Shown: piece after piece, positions 1-45,032 of the stretch
How the letters are laid out: every line of letters begins with the position of its first letter
Numbering within the stretch: position 1 is the first letter of the stretch
DNA from: an uncultured Bacilli bacterium
GTDB taxonomy: Bacteria; Bacillota_I; Bacilli_A; RF39; UBA660
Assembly (NCBI GenBank): GCA_944358825.1
Contig: CALVSA010000005.1
Coordinates: forward strand, 1-52,823
Length of the DNA stretch: 52,823 nt
Direction: 5' to 3'
The notes under the pieces: model-generated
The model's input: only the letters and a program-made list of their open reading frames with translations
Told to the model about the DNA's origin: nothing
Database searches by the model: none
Position numbers and translations under genes: made by a program

Positions 1-779
1 CATTTATAATTTTCATCACTATTTTCACTATCTGCTTTTACCCAGTTACTTCCATTATACATTACTGGTATCATATTATCTACGAGTTTCGGTGCATTTG
101 CTCCACTTGGATCCAAATTAATTATTTCTTCACTATTAGTAAGTTCAGTAGAAGTACTAGTACAAGTAGTAGTACAATATGTATTTTTATAGCCATTTTC
201 AGTTATTGTATAACACTCTTCAGTGCAATCACCTTCACCTACTAGTTCACAACTATAACTTCCTGCAGTTTCAGAATCAACCATATCTGTAATTAAAACC
301 TCTCCTTGTTCATATATAATATCACCTGGTTGATTATTATCATTATAATATCCTGTTCTTACCCCAATTTGTACAGTAATTGATTCATCAGTATTATTTA
401 TTATTACTAATGGAACAGTAATATTATTATCAGTTCCTGGTTGTATTGGTCCAGAAGTTGTGCTATTAGAAGATTCAGTTACTTCTGCTATTCTAATATT
501 GCTTGGTAAAGTACCAGGATTAATCATTTTATAATATATTCCATAAGAAATAGCAGATGTCATATCATTTTCTACAATTGCATTAAATCTTAATTTAGAT
601 CTTGCACCAATTGTAAATTCCTGATTAGAATTAATCTTAAAAGTATAATTTAAATCAGTATCCATAGAAATATCCCCAATTTCCACTGTTGAAGTAAACA
701 TCGCATATGTTGAATAAATTGCTAAAGTGAATAAACCAACCACAGCCACTAATAATAAATACATATTTTTTAACTTCAT
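1..779 (-). CDS. Secreted surface protein, N-terminal 259 codons (partial); likely DGR target
   Basis: An uninterrupted minus-strand frame starts with ATG at 777-779 and is still open at base 1, so the C-terminus is outside the window. The start follows a GGAGGG ribosome binding site. Residues 1-27 are a signal peptide or membrane anchor (MKLKNMYLLLVAVVGLF...). The next 200 residues are rich in Thr, Asn, Ile and Gly, like a beta-sandwich surface domain, with a Cys-rich patch (four or more Cys) near residues 190-215. The visible end, about DNMIPVMYNGSNWVKAD, matches what I remember of large surface proteins from gut Firmicutes that end in a C-type-lectin / formylglycine-enzyme-like fold. It lies directly downstream of a DGR reverse transcriptase, so its missing C-terminus is the likely variable region. 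Coding is directly visible; the target role is inference. Confidence 0.72.
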   Translation of the reverse strand, partial: MKLKNMYLLLVAVVGLFTLAIYSTYAMFTSTVEIGDISMDTDLNYTFKINSNQEFTIGARSKLRFNAIVENDMTSAISYGIYYKMINPGTLPSNIRIAEVTESSNSTTSGPIQPGTDNNITVPLVIINNTDESITVQIGVRTGYYNDNNQPGDIIYEQGEVLITDMVDSETAGSYSCELVGEGDCTEECYTITENGYKNTYCTTTCTSTSTELTNSEEIINLDPSGANAPKLVDNMIPVMYNGSNWVKADSENSDENYK

Positions 780-818
780 ATTCTCTACCCTCCTACTTCT
801 ATAATTACTTATATGTCA

Positions 819-847
819 ATTCTATCATATTAACTGACAATTTACAA
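819..847 (-). promoter_or_regulatory. Sigma-A type promoter of the surface-protein gene
   Basis: On the minus strand TTGTAA (842-847) and TAGAAT (819-824) are separated by exactly 17 bases, 40-70 bases upstream of the ATG at 779. The target gene therefore seems to have its own promoter, separate from the reverse transcriptase transcript, which meets a terminator just before it. Confidence 0.55.
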
Positions 848-897
848 CAAATTTTTTACAAATAAGAACATATATTGTTTTTCTTATTTATTTGCCT

Positions 898-924
898 AAA
901 AAAGAAGAAACTTAATTCTTCTTT
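898..924 (-). terminator. Rho-independent terminator downstream of the DGR genes
   Basis: A 9-bp perfect stem (901-909 with 916-924), a 6-base loop and a run of six T on the minus strand. It lies between the reverse transcriptase and the surface-protein gene and would end the msl-avd-RT transcript. Confidence 0.6.
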
Positions 925-1206
925 CATACATTCTTAATGTTCACATTTTGCTACTTACCAAGAATATATTATTTATGTATTTTATCTTTCGATAAGGAAT
1001 TAAGCTTCTACAATAATGCTACTGATAAGAATCCTTAAATACTTATAAACTAGAGCTTATTATATTGTAGTCTAGGCGCAAGCAAAGCCGCACCAGCCGA
1101 GAAAACACTAACCAAAAAACGACATAAATTACAACTTAATCCCTGTATAGATAAATCTATACAAGCTAACTATAGCATATATAAATTTATAATTGTTAAA
1201 AATTAA
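925..1206 (-). other. Non-coding stretch after the DGR reverse transcriptase; possible template-RNA region
   Basis: No gene is seen. The stretch contains a GC-richer, A-poor island on the minus strand (about 1060-1130) inside otherwise very AT-rich DNA, and a small hairpin at 1144-1163. One minus-strand frame through the island reads ...ALLAPRLQYNKL then stop, which resembles a protein C-terminus without a start codon. DGR template repeats often lie next to the reverse transcriptase and copy the 3' end of the target gene, so this is the best place to look for the template repeat or its 3' anchor. The variable repeat is off the window, so this cannot be tested here. Confidence 0.3.
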
Positions 1207-2253
1207 CTAACTAGAAATTATATTTTTATAATCAAATGCTATCTTTTTTAAAACACTTTGTTGTAATTTATAACTATTACAATGATTACTATGTGAAAGC
1301 CAAGAATTAATACTCGCCTCTACTTTCTTATAATCTAGTTTTTCATTATTAAAATACTTTTTATTCCATTTTTTTATCTTTTTTAATATCTTCTTTCTAC
1401 TACTTTTTCTAAGTAGACGATGAGTATTAAATATGCGATAACCACAAAAATCTACTCCTAAACTATTAGGAAAATATTTACTTTTAGAATTAAGAGTTAA
1501 TTTCAATTTATCTTCAATAAACTCTTCAATTTTTCTTTTAATAATTTTACACTCACTTTTACTATCTAAAAGCAAAACAAAATCATCCATATACCTAACA
1601 TAATATTTAACCTTTAACACATCTTTTACATAATGATCTAATTCATTTAAATATATATTAGCAAAATACTGTGATGTATAATTACCTATCGGTATTCCCA
1701 CTCTATCTTTATCATCATCAAAAATAATTATTTTAGTTAAATTAAGTAATTTCTTATCCGTAATATATTTAGACATAATATTAAATAAAATATCTTTATT
1801 AATTGAATAAAAATATTTTTTTATATCACACTTTAAAACATAATAATCAGGATTAATTCTTCTATATTTTTGCATATATTTTTGTATTTGTAAAACAGCT
1901 TTATGTGTTCCTCTATTTTCTATACAAGAATAAGTATCAGTAATAAATCTTTTAACAATAAAAGGCTTAATAAACTCACCAATATACCACTGATGCACTA
2001 CTCTATCTTTAAAAGGCAAAGCCTTAATTAATCTTTGTTTAGGTTCATATATAATAAATTCATGATATTTACCAGGTTTATAAGTATTAGTCTTAAGCTC
2101 ATTCATTATATTAATTAAATTAGTCTCTAAATCTAATTCAAATTTTAATATATAACTCTTATTACGCCTATTTTTACATATACGATAATAAGCATTATAT
2201 AAATTAATATAAGTTAGTTTATCATCAAAACAATTTTTAATTGTTTTGGACAT
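1207..2253 (-). CDS. Diversity-generating retroelement reverse transcriptase
   Basis: A 348-aa reverse transcriptase that in a DGR copies template RNA into adenine-mutagenised cDNA, which replaces the variable repeat of a target gene. Visible motifs: KCDIKKYF (about 141-148, first catalytic Asp), GIPIGNYTSQ (186-195) and YMDD (221-224, catalytic pair). The IGN.TSQ form of motif 4 is characteristic of DGR enzymes rather than group II intron or retron enzymes. No maturase or endonuclease domain follows; the C-terminus is a short basic thumb (about 285-348), the normal DGR length. Its start overlaps the end of avd by 17 bases, which implies translational coupling. Family assignment is strong; the active target is inferred. 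Confidence 0.9.
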   Translation of the reverse strand: MSKTIKNCFDDKLTYINLYNAYYRICKNRRNKSYILKFELDLETNLINIMNELKTNTYKPGKYHEFIIYEPKQRLIKALPFKDRVVHQWYIGEFIKPFIVKRFITDTYSCIENRGTHKAVLQIQKYMQKYRRINPDYYVLKCDIKKYFYSINKDILFNIMSKYITDKKLLNLTKIIIFDDDKDRVGIPIGNYTSQYFANIYLNELDHYVKDVLKVKYYVRYMDDFVLLLDSKSECKIIKRKIEEFIEDKLKLTLNSKSKYFPNSLGVDFCGYRIFNTHRLLRKSSRKKILKKIKKWNKKYFNNEKLDYKKVEASINSWLSHSNHCNSYKLQQSVLKKIAFDYKNIISS

Positions 2254-2593
2254 TACCTAACCACTTAAATAATAAATTATTTATATTTGTTAATTTTCTA
2301 GCCCAAGAACCATAGTTTTTAGCAGAAATATATTTCTTTTTATATGATAATCTAACTAATACTTTTAACATTTTTAAGTTAATATCTATTTCATTTAAAT
2401 AATAATGTTTTTTAGATCTAGAAACTTCTTTATATGCTTTTATAATTAAACGCATATTTTCAAAATTAATATTTCTTATATCTTTAACCAACAAATTTCT
2501 TTCTAATTTAGGAAATTTAGCAAGTAACATTTCAGAATAATATATAATATCAAAATTAGCTTTATATATAATTAAAGTCTCTACATCTTTCAT
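2237..2593 (-). CDS. avd: DGR accessory protein Avd (four-helix bundle)
   Basis: A 118-aa, helix-rich, basic protein with the bAvd pattern: an N-terminal L.IY.K.. helix, the FPK.ER motif (about residues 28-32), a central helix with IIKAYKEVSRSKK, a leucine-rich third helix with KVLVRLSYK, and a C-terminal K.Y..W...L..I..LL..W. Avd proteins form barrel-shaped pentamers that bind the template RNA and the reverse transcriptase and are needed for mutagenic retrohoming. It overlaps both the upstream MutS-like gene (4 bases) and the downstream reverse transcriptase (17 bases), so the three form one unit. The start has an AAAGGA site 6 bases upstream. Confidence 0.85.
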   Translation of the reverse strand: MKDVETLIIYKANFDIIYYSEMLLAKFPKLERNLLVKDIRNINFENMRLIIKAYKEVSRSKKHYYLNEIDINLKMLKVLVRLSYKKKYISAKNYGSWARKLTNINNLLFKWLGNVQNN

Positions 2594-2946
2594 AATAAAT
2601 CCTTTAATTTACTTAATATATTTAATGATTCAATTGGTTTTAACTCATTTATATTTAATTTTGATATCTTATCCAAATATCTTTCTAAATCACTCTTTCC
2701 TAAATATATTTCATCCGCTAGTTTTACATTCAAATTAATATTTTCAAAAATAGACAAATACTTATCTAAAGCATTATCTGGAAAACCACATTTTAACACT
2801 TCTTTACTATGATTAATTAATTTTAAAGTTGTATATTTATTAATAGTAATCGCATCTTCGTCTAAAAATATATAAAACTTTCCTGACTTAAACAAATATA
2901 ACGCATTTTTATTAATTTTTTTCAATTCTAAATACTTCTCATACAT
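2590..2946 (-). CDS. MutS domain-I-like DGR accessory protein (MSL)
   Basis: About 118 aa from the chosen start. I chose the ATG at 2944-2946 (MYEKYLELKK...) because GAGGTAG lies 6-7 bases upstream; a start 21 codons earlier is possible but has no site. The sequence KYLELKKINKNALYLFKSGKFYIFLDEDA resembles the mismatch-recognition domain I of MutS (substrate opens with a K....LLF..G.FYE.F..DA pattern), without the clamp or ATPase domains. Small MutS-like genes are a known accessory type beside avd in some gut DGRs. It is the first gene of the msl-avd-RT set. The MutS-like assignment is from pattern memory and is moderate. Confidence 0.62.
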   Translation of the reverse strand: MYEKYLELKKINKNALYLFKSGKFYIFLDEDAITINKYTTLKLINHSKEVLKCGFPDNALDKYLSIFENINLNVKLADEIYLGKSDLERYLDKISKLNINELKPIESLNILSKLKDLL

Positions 2947-3133
2947 AAATACTACCTCATACATAAGCATAACATAAAATAAATAGAAAATGTTAAAATT
3001 AACTACCAATTACCGTTTTTGTTCCTTATTTGTATAATAATTAACTAGAAAGTAACATTTTTATTACAAATAGTAATAGTAAAAATATAAAAAAGCTTAA
3101 ACCTTTTTATATAACTGGATTATCCCAATTATC

Positions 3134-3187
3134 GATGGTGTATAATCTAGTGTGCTTTTTAATTTACACACTAGATTATACACCATC
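3134..3187. repeat. 21-bp perfect inverted repeat with 12-base loop
   Basis: The arms 3134-3154 and 3167-3187 are perfectly complementary and enclose an AT-only loop apart from one C. It lies 30 bases past the lipoprotein stop and about 190 bases upstream of the MutS-like gene. Neither side has a T-run, so a simple terminator is unlikely. Both arms contain TATAAT. It may be an operator, an RNA structure or a mobile-element scar. Confidence 0.7.
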
Positions 3188-3217: not shown

Positions 3218-3835
3218 TTAAATATTTGTAACTAAATAATCATCTTTTTCTATTTTTAATTTAGTAATATTACTACTACTAATTATATAAGTATCAATCC
3301 AAGTAGTATATAAATGCTCCATAAACTCATTTGAAAAATCAATCTGTTCATTATAAAATAAAGCCTGCATATTATCATTTAATCTAATAAAAACATTTTC
3401 TTCATTATTTAAAATATAAATATAATCACAATAGCTATAATCTCCATTTATAGATATATTTTTATCATAAACACAAAAATTTATATCACCAAATTCAAAT
3501 AATAACTTATCTATCTTACTAATCTTTAAACCATCTACCATAATACTACTACCATCTAATACATACCTATTTTCATACTCAATATCCGTAATAATATTAT
3601 CAAGTAATATTAAATTATCAACCTTATTAATTTCATTAGTATATATTTTATCATTATTTTCTAACTCCACTAAAGTACTTTTATTATCTAAAGTAAATAA
3701 TAAAGAAGTTGAAACATCATTTTTAATAAATAAAATAGAATTATTTTCTATTATATTATCCCCATTTATATACATAGATTTACACCCTAATAATAATAAA
3801 ATTAATATAATAAGTATTTTTTTCAAAAAAGACAC
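3218..3835 (-). CDS. Putative lipoprotein, unknown function
   Basis: A 205-aa protein with a classic lipoprotein signal: MSFLKK, a hydrophobic stretch and the lipobox LLLG-C (Cys about residue 18). The mature part is Asn/Ile/Asp-rich with alternating beta-type hydrophobics and no motif I recognise. It lies 5 bases downstream of the CCA-adding enzyme stop and is probably co-transcribed with it. The ribosome site GAGGTG is close before the ATG. Expected to be anchored outside the membrane. Confidence 0.7.
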   Translation of the reverse strand: MSFLKKILIILILLLLGCKSMYINGDNIIENNSILFIKNDVSTSLLFTLDNKSTLVELENNDKIYTNEINKVDNLILLDNIITDIEYENRYVLDGSSIMVDGLKISKIDKLLFEFGDINFCVYDKNISINGDYSYCDYIYILNNEENVFIRLNDNMQALFYNEQIDFSNEFMEHLYTTWIDTYIISSSNITKLKIEKDDYLVTNI

Positions 3836-3840
3836 CTCAC

Positions 3841-4935
3841 TTAAGAGTATGTCTTTTGTATATAAGAAATAATATCATCTTTATTATTATTTAACTTTTT
3901 ATAAACAATTTTCTTCTCAATATCATTCATAATTTCTTTCAAATATTTACCAGGCTTTTTATCCAATAAATTTGCAATTTCTAACTCACATAGCGCAATA
4001 TCTTTTCTACTATATATAGATAAATTATTATATATTTTAGTAACTTCTTTCTTATCAATACCCTTTATATCTGCACAAACACTATTGGAATATAACTCAT
4101 ATTTATATAAAATATAAGGATCTAAATTATCTTCTTTTAATAATTTTCTAATTAATTTCATCTGTTGCTTTTCTAATTTTGTAAAAGGATATAAACTATC
4201 AACTTCCAATTGCGCCCAAATACCAATTACATCATTACATAAAATAATAGAAGATAAATTATTAAGCTCTAAATACTTATCTAACTTTAAATCTAATATT
4301 AAACTTACCCCAGCTTCTTTATTAGAAGATAAAAATATTTTATTTAACTCATCTTTTTTTCTTTGATAAGACAAACTATTAAGTAATTTAGCATACTTCA
4401 TAATATAATGTTTAGTCTTATTATCAATCTTAAAATCCAAACTAGAAGCAAATCTAATAGCTCTTAAAATCCTAAGTGAATCTTCCCTAATTCGATAACG
4501 AGGATTGCCAACTGTCTTAATAATTTTATTATCAAGATCATCTTTAACATTCAAAAAATCTAGTACTTCTTCATTACTATTAATACAAAAAGTATTAATA
4601 GTAAAATCACGTCTTAATAAGTCTTTTTTTATATCTTTTATATATTTAATCTTAACAGGCTTTCTATTATCCTCATACTTTAATTCCTGTCTAAAAGTAG
4701 TAACATCATAAGTATAATTTTTATAAATAACCCGAACTGCTCCATATTGTACTTCACTACTAGTTGTAATATCAAAAATTTCCATTAATTCTTTAGGTGT
4801 TGCACTAGTACAAATATCAATATCGTTAGAATCTTTACCTAATAGTTTATCTCTTACATAACCACCGACTATATAAGCTTGATGTCCATTATCTTCTAGT
4901 AACTTCAATACTTCAATTGCCTTTTCATACATCAT
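3841..4935 (-). CDS. cca: CCA-adding enzyme / tRNA nucleotidyltransferase
   Basis: Class II nucleotidyltransferase that builds or repairs the 3' CCA of tRNAs. Residues about 18-45 hold GGYVRDKLLGK and the catalytic DIDI carboxylates. RRDFTINT and DSLRILRAIRFASSLDF follow (about 105-170) as the basic and nucleotide-recognition motifs. The C-terminal half is helical with no HD domain. I place the start at the ATG at 4935, with GGGTGA 6 bases upstream; a GTG three codons earlier lies inside that site. A TATAAT box lies just upstream (about 4954-4959). The tRNAs in this window already encode CCA, so repair is a likely main role. Confidence 0.88.
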   Translation of the reverse strand: MMYEKAIEVLKLLEDNGHQAYIVGGYVRDKLLGKDSNDIDICTSATPKELMEIFDITTSSEVQYGAVRVIYKNYTYDVTTFRQELKYEDNRKPVKIKYIKDIKKDLLRRDFTINTFCINSNEEVLDFLNVKDDLDNKIIKTVGNPRYRIREDSLRILRAIRFASSLDFKIDNKTKHYIMKYAKLLNSLSYQRKKDELNKIFLSSNKEAGVSLILDLKLDKYLELNNLSSIILCNDVIGIWAQLEVDSLYPFTKLEKQQMKLIRKLLKEDNLDPYILYKYELYSNSVCADIKGIDKKEVTKIYNNLSIYSRKDIALCELEIANLLDKKPGKYLKEIMNDIEKKIVYKKLNNNKDDIISYIQKTYS

Positions 4936-5068
4936 ACTATTCACCCATTTAATTATATCATTAAATTAGACTAATAAATTATTTTTTTTACATATATGTC
5001 AACTAAAAGTAAAGACATATCTTTTTATAAATAAATAATTAATTTATTATTATAATAGAAAAAAACAT

Positions 5069-5119
5069 AAGTTATTGACCAGTTTTAGCACTATTGTATT
5101 AAAAAGTGGTCGATAACTT
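5069..5119. promoter_or_regulatory. 13-bp palindrome overlapping the ATPase promoter
   Basis: Arms 5069-5081 and 5107-5119 are complementary at 12 of 13 positions with a 25-base spacer. The right arm covers the first two bases of the -35 box of the ATPase promoter. The region lies between divergent genes, so an operator is more likely than a terminator. Confidence 0.5.
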
Positions 5120-5146
5120 GTATTTTTCTTTAAAATAATATATAAT
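5118..5146 (+). promoter_or_regulatory. Promoter of the DUF4143 ATPase
   Basis: TTGTAT (5118-5123) and TATAAT (5141-5146) with a 17-base spacer, 25 bases before the GTG start. Confidence 0.6.
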
Positions 5147-5170
5147 TAATAACAAAGGAGATGAAAAAAA

Positions 5171-35218: not shown

Positions 35219-35284
35219 CTATATCACCTCTACATTAGTTTATGTTAAAAGATAAATTTGGTTAATTATAAGAATTTAATCAGA

Positions 35285-35425
35285 ACAAAGGAAACAAAAT
35301 AAATTTTGTTTCTTCCTTGTCGTTACCTCCAAGGTTTCCTACTTCATAGATAGTCTCTGACTAGTCTCCATAGGCTTAAATTCCGATAGTCGCTACCGTA
35401 TTTGTTCCTTTTTTTTGCTTTTTAC
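35285..35425 (-). ncRNA. Putative omega-RNA / right end of the TnpB element
   Basis: On the minus strand, downstream of tnpB, lies AATTTAAGCCTATGGAGACT followed by a GAAGTAGGAA motif and a strong hairpin GAAACAAAA/TTTTGTTTC at the very end. This is the usual place and look of a TnpB guide RNA scaffold. The first 93 bases are found again at 52731-52823 with one difference. Confidence 0.6.
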
Positions 35426-35439
35426 TATTTTAACATTAT

Positions 35440-35722
35440 TTACCTTTGATAATGTAATTTTAATCCCTCAAATAAGATGTTTATACTAGCATTTATATCT
35501 CTATCCAATGTTCTTCCACAATTCGTGCATTTATATTCTCTTATACTTAAATCTTTTAATTTAGGCTCTTTTTGTTCACAATAGGAACAAATCTGACTAC
35601 TCGGGTAATATGTATCTACTTTATAGTAGTACTTACCTTACACATCCAAGGGTCTTATGAATTAAGATTGTTTGTTTTTCACTAGGATATAATCTAAATT
35701 TATAAGTTTTATAATTCTTCAT
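35440..35722 (-). pseudogene. tnpB remnant, internally deleted
   Basis: The first 26 codons (MKNYKTYKFRLYPSEKQTIL..., to GCVR then stop) match the N-terminus of the copy at 44295-45032. After the deletion the last 60 or so codons follow: YPSSQICSYCEQ...EYKCTNCGRTLDRDINASINIL, that is the zinc ribbon and the last RuvC Asp. The catalytic core between them is gone. Confidence 0.88.
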
Positions 35723-35964
35723 AACGTATCACCTCGCTTGTAATTAAACTATAGCATACAAAACATATGTTTGTCAATACTTTTTTTAAAATTAAAAAGA
35801 TTATTTTGTTACAGTTCTCTATTCAGTTTTGTTAGAATTAAATCTGATGGGACTTTTTTGTTTGTTATTGAACGGAGAACTTTCCTATTTAATAAAAAAG
35901 AAATAGATAAATACCTATTCCCTTGACAATATATTATAACGTAGTTCAAATAACATATTTATTA

Positions 35965-44294: not shown

Positions 44295-45032
44295 TTAATA
44301 TATCATTAGTTTTGTTTTATTATAGTTCTCACTTCCTTTTTCTCTTCTGGATAATTCTCTTTGCAGTCTTTTTAATCTTTTTTCATATTTAGTTATAACT
44401 TTTTGGTTATCATACTTTTCATAATCACTAGTTATTATTAAATCCTTTATTCCAAGATCAATACCAATAGCTTTACCAGGATTTACTTTGTCTTTAAATA
44501 AAGTATCTTCTTCAACTACGACACTTACATAGTATTTACCTGTTACTTCTCTTATTATGGTTGCATTAATAATTTTTCCAGTTATTTCCTTTTGATTACG
44601 ATATCCTCTTATATCAACTAATCCTAATTTAGGTAATTTTATTTTTTTATTAAGTAAATCTATTTTAATGTTACTGTATGTATTATTCTTATAACTACTT
44701 ACAATACAGTTAGTTCTATAACTTTGGTAAGTTCTTTTGTTTTTAAAAACGGGATAGTTCGCTCTTTTAGCAAAAAAATTATTATAAGCATCTTCTAAAT
44801 TAAAGATAGCACATCTTAAAGCACAACTATCTACTTCTTTTAAGAATGGTTTTTCTTTTTGTAAGTATTTTAAATTATTACAATTAGTAAATGCTTTTGT
44901 TATTCCTTCTTCTTGCTGTTTTGCGAGGTAATAATTATATACTAATCTTACACATCCAAAGGTCTTATGAATTAAGATTGTTTGTTTTTCACTAGGATAT
45001 AATCTAAATTTATAAGTTTTATAACTCTTCAT
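44295..45032 (-). pseudogene. tnpB copy B, 3' truncated
   Basis: 245 aa of TnpB: the N-terminal MKSYKTYKFRLYPSEKQTILIHKTFGCVRLVYNYYL, the wedge and first RuvC part GKAIGIDLGIKDLIITS (catalytic Asp about 192), then RLQRELSRREKGSENYNKTK before an abrupt stop. The zinc ribbon, the last two RuvC carboxylates and the whole right end / guide RNA are missing. It cannot be active alone. Upstream left end at 45033-45194 is nearly identical to that of relic A. Confidence 0.9.

Follow-up and report, generated by a model that had tools for sequence, protein, structure and literature searches.

The window analysed here, the whole 52,823-nucleotide contig CALVSA010000005.1 (C5) from an uncultured Bacilli bacterium (assembly GCA_944358825.1), raises two questions: does its left end encode a working diversity-generating retroelement (DGR), and what would a gene resembling the mismatch repair protein MutS do in such an element? 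The genome comprises 1.27 Mb in 53 contigs and is 91% complete. Judged from its sequence, the element is a DGR of the kind that carries a MutS-like protein (MSL), located in the chromosome of a Bacilli bacterium with a small genome; its templates are displaced from the reverse transcriptase (RT), and its many targets are dispersed. We are highly confident of two statements taken jointly, namely that a DGR with an MSL is present and that the MSL is derived from MutS in its make-up. The assignment of a role to MSL is more tentative.

A reverse transcriptase of the DGR type with Avd and MSL

The open reading frames (ORFs) of RT, Avd and MSL are all open and of full length. They overlap at their ends on the minus strand in an operon-like manner, and the three predicted genes form one gene cluster. 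The RT matched PF00078 with an E value of 1.3e-16 and the PHROG_1423 reverse transcriptase family with 3.5e-119. The motifs IGNYTSQ, which is the DGR form of motif 4 with its SQ, and YMDD were read directly from the translation, in agreement with the first-pass annotation of this DNA, which had named IGN.TSQ and YMDD for the RT and FPK.ER for Avd. The latter motif is present as FPKLER. Avd matched PF22296 (bAvd) with an E value of 7.9e-14, above the Pfam cut-off, and the PHROG family "Avd protein of DGR" with 2.4e-20; the match to the NCBIfam model DivGenRetAVD has an E value of 6.3e-15 but, with 55.4 of 80 bits, stays under the model's own cut-off.

Could the RT belong to another retroelement, such as a group II intron, a retron or an RT-based phage defence system (DRT), the pattern of variable repeats described below stemming from a different, unassembled DGR? 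NCBIfam and PADLOC do give matches to all three kinds, those to group II introns and retrons lying far below cut-off. The enzyme does not, however, classify as a DRT, since the best named DRT family of PADLOC reached an E value of 1.4e-26 compared to 3.5e-119 for phrog_1423. Further arguments against such an origin are the form IGNYTSQ of motif 4, the Avd gene and an RT-14 RNA adjoining the RT gene, and the relatives with an RT identity of 43-60%, which have adjoining pairs of template repeat (TR) and variable repeat (VR). Moreover, a search of the genome found no other full-length close RT. We therefore consider this alternative highly improbable.

Make-up of MSL

MSL matched PF01624 (MutS_I) with an E value of 1.7e-11, exceeding the cut-off, and a profile of MSL proteins matched MutS structures with 3e-8. 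The predicted structural model of MSL (pLDDT 88.5) matched domain I of MutS, MSH3 and MSH6 with Z values of up to 13.1 and 1.5 Å over 81 residues; the next unrelated structural match had a Z value of 5.6. In 39 aligned MSLs, the residues Gly23, Phe25, Tyr26 and Asp32 as well as a CGFP motif are invariant. In MutS, Phe36 stacks on the mismatch, and Glu38 forms a hydrogen bond and is thought to pass the signal (PMC3848065). The Phe is kept in all 39 MSLs, whereas the position of Glu38 contains an Ile (37/39) or a Leu (2/39), so that the Phe-X-Glu motif of MutS is not found in this set despite the domain I fold. More divergent MSLs outside the set vary at this position, and three of them (L067, L099 and L101) have a Glu.

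A second part of MutS was recognized at the C-terminus. The host genome encodes a full MutS of 860 aa. When this protein and 1,126 background ORFs were searched with a profile of MSL tails, residues 833-856 of MutS were matched with an E value of 2.2e-7, the next best match being at 0.045. Conversely, when the C-terminal 32 residues of 28 MutS proteins from the class (Bacilli) were made into a profile and searched against the 3,011 ORFs of 80 loci, the only matches at E<0.01 were 54 MSLs. An MSL-tail profile from seven sequences gave no MutS match in the PDB; the relation to MutS emerged with the two larger profiles just described. The ATPase domain V and the clamp are absent from the 119-aa MSL. 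The predicted protein thus consists of MutS domain I and the MutS C-terminal tail, i.e. the last ~25 residues from the tetramerisation region, and lacks domains II to V and with them connector, clamp and ATPase. The E. coli MutS variant D835R, a tail mutant, forms no tetramers (PMC4521584), and tetramerisation of MutS is reported to be important in suppressing homologous recombination (PMC3848065). The earlier description as a lone MutS domain I is therefore right with respect to the domain, as supported by sequence and structure, but not with respect to "lone"; the length of 118 aa given for the protein is that of Avd.

The linkage of MSL to DGRs was assessed in 80 MSL loci. A DGR RT lies within 6 kb in 71 of them, Avd is present in 67, and the order MSL-Avd-RT is found in 57. 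A detector reported an adenine-biased repeat pair in 46 of the 80 loci, a few of which are weak and probably not TR/VR pairs. Distances between MSLs correlate with those between RTs (r 0.58) and between Avd proteins (r 0.61), values reached by 0/2000 permutations; the corresponding r for Avd and RT is 0.89. The relatives, which were collected in a scan of genome collections, are metagenome-assembled genomes, many from gut samples by name, and are labelled Bacilli, Tenericutes, Erysipelotrichaceae or Clostridia. The host, a small bacterium, is probably gut-living. No MSL relative was confirmed in the viral collection. In L137, L162, L167, L169, L181, L188 and further loci, an MSL occurs without a detected RT in the fetched flanks (up to 6 kb); these may be orphan MSLs.

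A MutS-like accessory gene is not a new idea: in PMC10053308, which cites Wu et al. 2018, MSL (PF01624) is already listed as a DGR accessory. No description of a MutS tail on an MSL was found in the literature covered, with Wu et al. 2018 outside that scope. The gene type is consequently not new; as far as the literature covered shows, the new points are its make-up as a miniature MutS and the assignment of RT-14 as a scaffold of DGR templates.

Displaced templates and dispersed variable repeats

A TR had been expected between positions 781 and 3217 of the window. No complete TR was found near the RT, only a 69-base remnant (1144-1076) that has lost the body of the TR but retains AGGGATTAAGTTGTAA as its 5' element and CTCGGCTGGTGCGGC... 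as its constant 3' end. A motif similar to AGGGATTAAGTTGTAA precedes TRs in 15 of 41 upstream windows, compared to 11 of 1600 random windows. In a search of the own genome, a constant 15-mer was located at eight places. Two of these lie on contig C51 and belong to a tandem of identical, AAC-rich TRs, each followed by a relative of the RT-14 RNA; others are at the ends of surface-protein genes.

Searching with the protein sequence of one target and aligning the results to the TR of C51 identified ten clear VRs, one on each of the contigs C12, C36, C30, C11, C27, C42, C15, C21, C3 and C19. Degenerate VRs were additionally found on C13 and C29. The ten pooled VRs differ from the C51 TR at 193/373 adenines, but at only 81/1042 other bases. 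For the VR of C3, 22/38 adenines and 1/107 other bases differ (p 8e-15). Adenine-specific TR/VR pairs thus exist in the genome, and the element is a DGR as had been supposed. The non-adenine differences are largely common to the VRs of C12, C36, C30, C27 and C15, and because they are shared, they suggest a second, unassembled type of TR. Several VRs are followed by inverted repeats, for example GAACCAC-GAA-GTGGTTC after those of C12 and C3.

C51 starts just 3' of a target gene, and there it matches the 3' flanks of the targets on C36 and C12 at 98-99%. It may or may not continue the cut-off target of the window. Accordingly, the distance between TR and RT would be either ~2 kb or many kb, and most targets are remote in either case. 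Since C51 could continue this target, we do not claim that the TR is certainly in trans. A pairing of window positions 1101-952 with C51 as TR and VR was considered and rejected; the mismatches are not adenine-specific and the region belongs to the RT-14 RNA. In a related genome (G032, contig C7, locus L219), a repeat resembling a TR carries the 5' element GGGATTAAATTGTA, but it is poor in adenines and its RNA is truncated; this is apparently another decayed template.

These data also bear on whether the cassette of the window is a decaying DGR that has lost its local TR and whose VRs record past activity alone. The TR remnant beside the RT gene, the degenerate VRs on C13 and C29, and decayed relatives in the genomes G210 and G032 would be in line with decay. 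Against it, the RT, Avd and MSL frames have stayed open, the VRs of C3 and C19 appear recent because 21-24 adenines but just 1-2 other bases differ from the TR, and intact copies of TR and RNA exist. Decay is for these reasons unlikely, and a DGR with displaced templates is the preferred reading.

The RNA downstream of the template repeats

The first-pass annotation did not contain the RNA that follows the TR remnant. This segment of the window matches the Rfam family RF02921 (RT-14) with 53.6 bits, the gathering score being 48.1; the RNA as a whole is placed at about 1075-926 on the minus strand. Among 243 genomes of the family, 18 contain RT-14, five of these with a match above cut-off. In most of the fetched loci, it is located directly 3' of an AAC-rich TR and usually adjoins RT, Avd and MSL; in a separate set, made up of MSL loci, the sequences 3' of the TRs can be aligned to this RNA as well.

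The structure of the RNA rests on covariation and on Rfam. Helix P1 has 13 double-changed cells in 13 sequences, and its covariation score was reached by 0/500 shuffles. A comparison by eye of the copies in the window and on C51 showed that the helices are kept by compensating changes: a G-C to T-A exchange in P2, a T-A to A-T exchange in P3, and two altered pairs in P4. Folded as a single sequence, the RNA of the window is not clearly more stable than its shuffles (z -0.9), and the minimum-energy fold does not contain P1. Taken together, the sequences show RT-14 to be the structured RNA located directly after DGR TRs. In BPP-1, the DGR phage of Bordetella, RT-Avd is recruited by the folded spacer that lies 3' of the TR (PMC12875486). 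Because RT-14 sits 3' of TRs, its P1 covaries and its helices are kept, it is by analogy best read as the DGR spacer, i.e. the 3' scaffold of the template RNA. A literature search for RT-14 found no paper.

Identical RT-14 RNAs (L097 and L098) occur on two contigs of genome G210. One copy follows a VR and a TR and has no RT nearby; the other stands between a VR, which it follows directly, and a broken MSL, and no RT was found there.

Layout of the locus and its targets

The features of the locus are listed in Table 1. On the minus strand, their order is MSL, Avd, RT, RNA without TR, terminator-like hairpin, gap and surface protein. Close relatives have the order target-TR-RNA-MSL-Avd-RT, so that the earlier remark on an unusual gene order is partly right.

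Table 1. Features at the left end of the window (contig C5)
Feature	Positions	Strand	Description
MSL	2590..2949	-	119 aa from ATG 2949 (139 aa from upstream TTG 3009); MutS domain I and MutS C-terminal tail (predicted); PF01624
Avd accessory protein	2237..2593	-	118 aa; PF22296, PHROG Avd
DGR-type reverse transcriptase	1207..2253	-	348 aa; IGNYTSQ, YMDD; PF00078, phrog_1423
5' element AGGGATTAAGTTGTAA	1129..1144	-	similar element upstream of the TRs at some related loci
Template-repeat remnant	1076..1128	-	body lost, adenine-poor; constant 3' end CTCGGCTGGTGCGGCTTTGCTTGCGC kept (1076-1101); from comparison with the C51 TRs
RT-14 RNA match, read as DGR spacer RNA	926..1055	-	RF02921; arms of helix P1 reach ~1070-1063 and 1015-1008
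Terminator-like hairpin with T run	898..925	-	read directly from the sequence
Surface protein, N-terminal part	3..779	-	signal-peptide type, probable DGR target; cut off at base 1, VR beyond contig end

The surface-protein gene runs from 779 to <3 (-) and thus leaves the window, in accordance with the C-terminus having been described as cut off. Over its first 120 bases, it shares 80-92% identity with portions of paralogs, and several of these paralogs have a VR at their end. The lectin-type fold proposed for the target is weakly supported by matches to FGE-sulfatase, the best of which has an E value of 1.1e-4; the targets of 7 of 11 relatives reach E<0.1, the first member being below the cut-off. 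The structural model of the target is poor (pLDDT 48.6), and a PDB profile search yielded just one uncharacterised protein (E 0.007). Some target or neighbouring proteins, among them L144:3822-5480 (the target protein of a relative) and L036 2369-3313, have a type IV prepilin-like N-terminus, with pilin matches in the PDB for L144. Pili may therefore be the site at which the variable domain is displayed.

A near-perfect inverted repeat, TATAATCTAGTGTG...CACACTAGATTATA, occupies positions 3134-3187 upstream of the cluster of MSL, Avd and RT; in Rfam it gave only sub-threshold matches to animal miRNAs. A gene for a putative lipoprotein-like protein without family match (3218-3835, minus strand) likewise lies upstream of the cluster. 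The ORF at 44295-45032 (ORF 45032-44295) is read as a gene of the IS200/IS605-type TnpB. The repeat at this gene occurs at two places in C5 and at the far end of C51, with a related copy at 35639-35840. Contigs C51 and C21 both have the TnpB-associated repeat at an end, and another short repeat (35282-35377) is noted for the right end of the window. Because the TnpB-associated repeat lies at contig ends, mobile elements probably break the assembly. In the same genome (G000), contig C10 encodes at ~4791-5147 a 129-aa fragment of another RT (L070), near a further surface protein with a similar N-terminal half.

Possible role of MSL

If the established biochemistry of DGRs applies, the RT-Avd complex would bind the RT-14 spacer RNA of the TR transcript, and the RT would copy the TR with errors at adenines. 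The resulting mutated cDNA would then replace the VR in one of the dispersed targets. Within the DGR cycle, this entry into the target is among the steps that are incompletely understood (PMC12875486). Because the cDNA and the VR with which it pairs differ at many sites, MutS-dependent rejection would oppose the transfer; mismatch surveillance in general should oppose the entry of mutated cDNA. We propose that MSL acts at the moment at which the mutated cDNA pairs with the old VR. Having the intercalating Phe but no signalling Glu, it might hold or mask the mismatched heteroduplex, and/or its tail might cap the host MutS. The transfer would then be undone neither by heteroduplex rejection nor by mismatch repair. 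Shielding or capping is the least certain step of this scheme and is offered as a tentative possibility. MSL may even be a naturally evolved anti-MutS, which has kept two interaction surfaces, mismatch contact and tetramer tail, without the signalling parts and with which the retroelement switches off heteroduplex rejection locally, allowing heavily mutated cDNA to recombine into the targets; we regard this as possible but less probable than not.

About equally possible as shielding or capping is a role of MSL as structural subunit of the RT-Avd-RNA complex, in which fold and tail would serve to oligomerise and to contact either the spacer RNA or the hybrid of RNA and cDNA; MSL would then have no part in mismatch repair. 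The overlap of its gene with that of Avd, the covariation with RT and Avd, the loss of the mismatch-specific Glu and the drift of some tails from the host MutS are all consistent with a subunit. On the other hand, most MSLs have kept the intercalating Phe and the MutS tail, neither of which a general RNA-binding subunit would need.

Several points weigh against the DGR and MSL scheme as a whole. The evidence consists of the assembled sequence of one genome. In the assembly, the TR does not adjoin the RT and the local copy is a remnant; the RT is for this reason linked to the TRs of C51 just by the shared RNA and the shared genome. One relative (L063 in G010) has Avd and RT, but no MSL was detected at this locus, indicating that MSL is dispensable in some relatives. 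In several Clostridia, the MSL tail has drifted from the MutS motif whereas the host MutS keeps it, which speaks against pairing of the tail with MutS as a universal mechanism. Finally, when mutS was deleted in E. coli, the BPP-1 DGR showed unchanged repair of a reporter with an 18-nt insertion (PMC12875486), although this reporter is not a base-mismatch substrate.

With the proposed shielding or capping role, an MSL that contains both ends of MutS and no middle turns the vague label "MutS-like" into a testable hypothesis. The hitherto uncharacterised RT-14 family, taken as template scaffold, would provide a search model for templates that are located away from an RT and are missed by RT-centred surveys. 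Within ~1.27 Mb, one diversifying machine apparently serves at least ten dispersed surface proteins.

Comparison with known systems

MSL shares the C-terminal tail motif with MutS (mutS1), and likewise the fold of domain I, for which bacterial MutS proteins gave Z values of about 11-12.6. In contrast to MSL, MutS possesses domains II to V and the Glu of the Phe-X-Glu motif, which is Ile or Leu in the 39 MSLs of the clade, and has 860 instead of 119 aa. The covariance model of Rfam RF02921 (RT-14) matches the RNA of the window and of its relatives; the role as 3' scaffold of the DGR template RNA, directly after the TR, is assigned here.

The DGR of Bordetella phage BPP-1 is not known to have an MSL. 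Like the element described here, it comprises a DGR RT, Avd and a structured spacer 3' of the TR (PMC12875486). In BPP-1, avd and the RT gene flank the TR (PMC12875486), whereas the gene order is different here and target genes are scattered across the chromosome. The MSL-bearing DGRs (Wu et al. 2018, as cited in PMC10053308) likewise have adjoining genes for RT, Avd and a PF01624 protein as well as adenine-biased TR/VR pairs. Compared to these, the element of the window differs in a TR that is away from the RT, with a remnant at the locus, in at least ten dispersed targets and in the MutS tail recognized on its MSL. Several dispersed genes for variable proteins, incomplete loci and an inferred action in trans are also features of the DGRs of Thiohalocapsa PB-PSB1 (PMC10907252) and of cyanobacteria (PMC7517822). 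These remote-target DGRs belong to other hosts; in the Bacilli genome studied here, the template RNA unit, consisting of TR and spacer, is duplicated in tandem.

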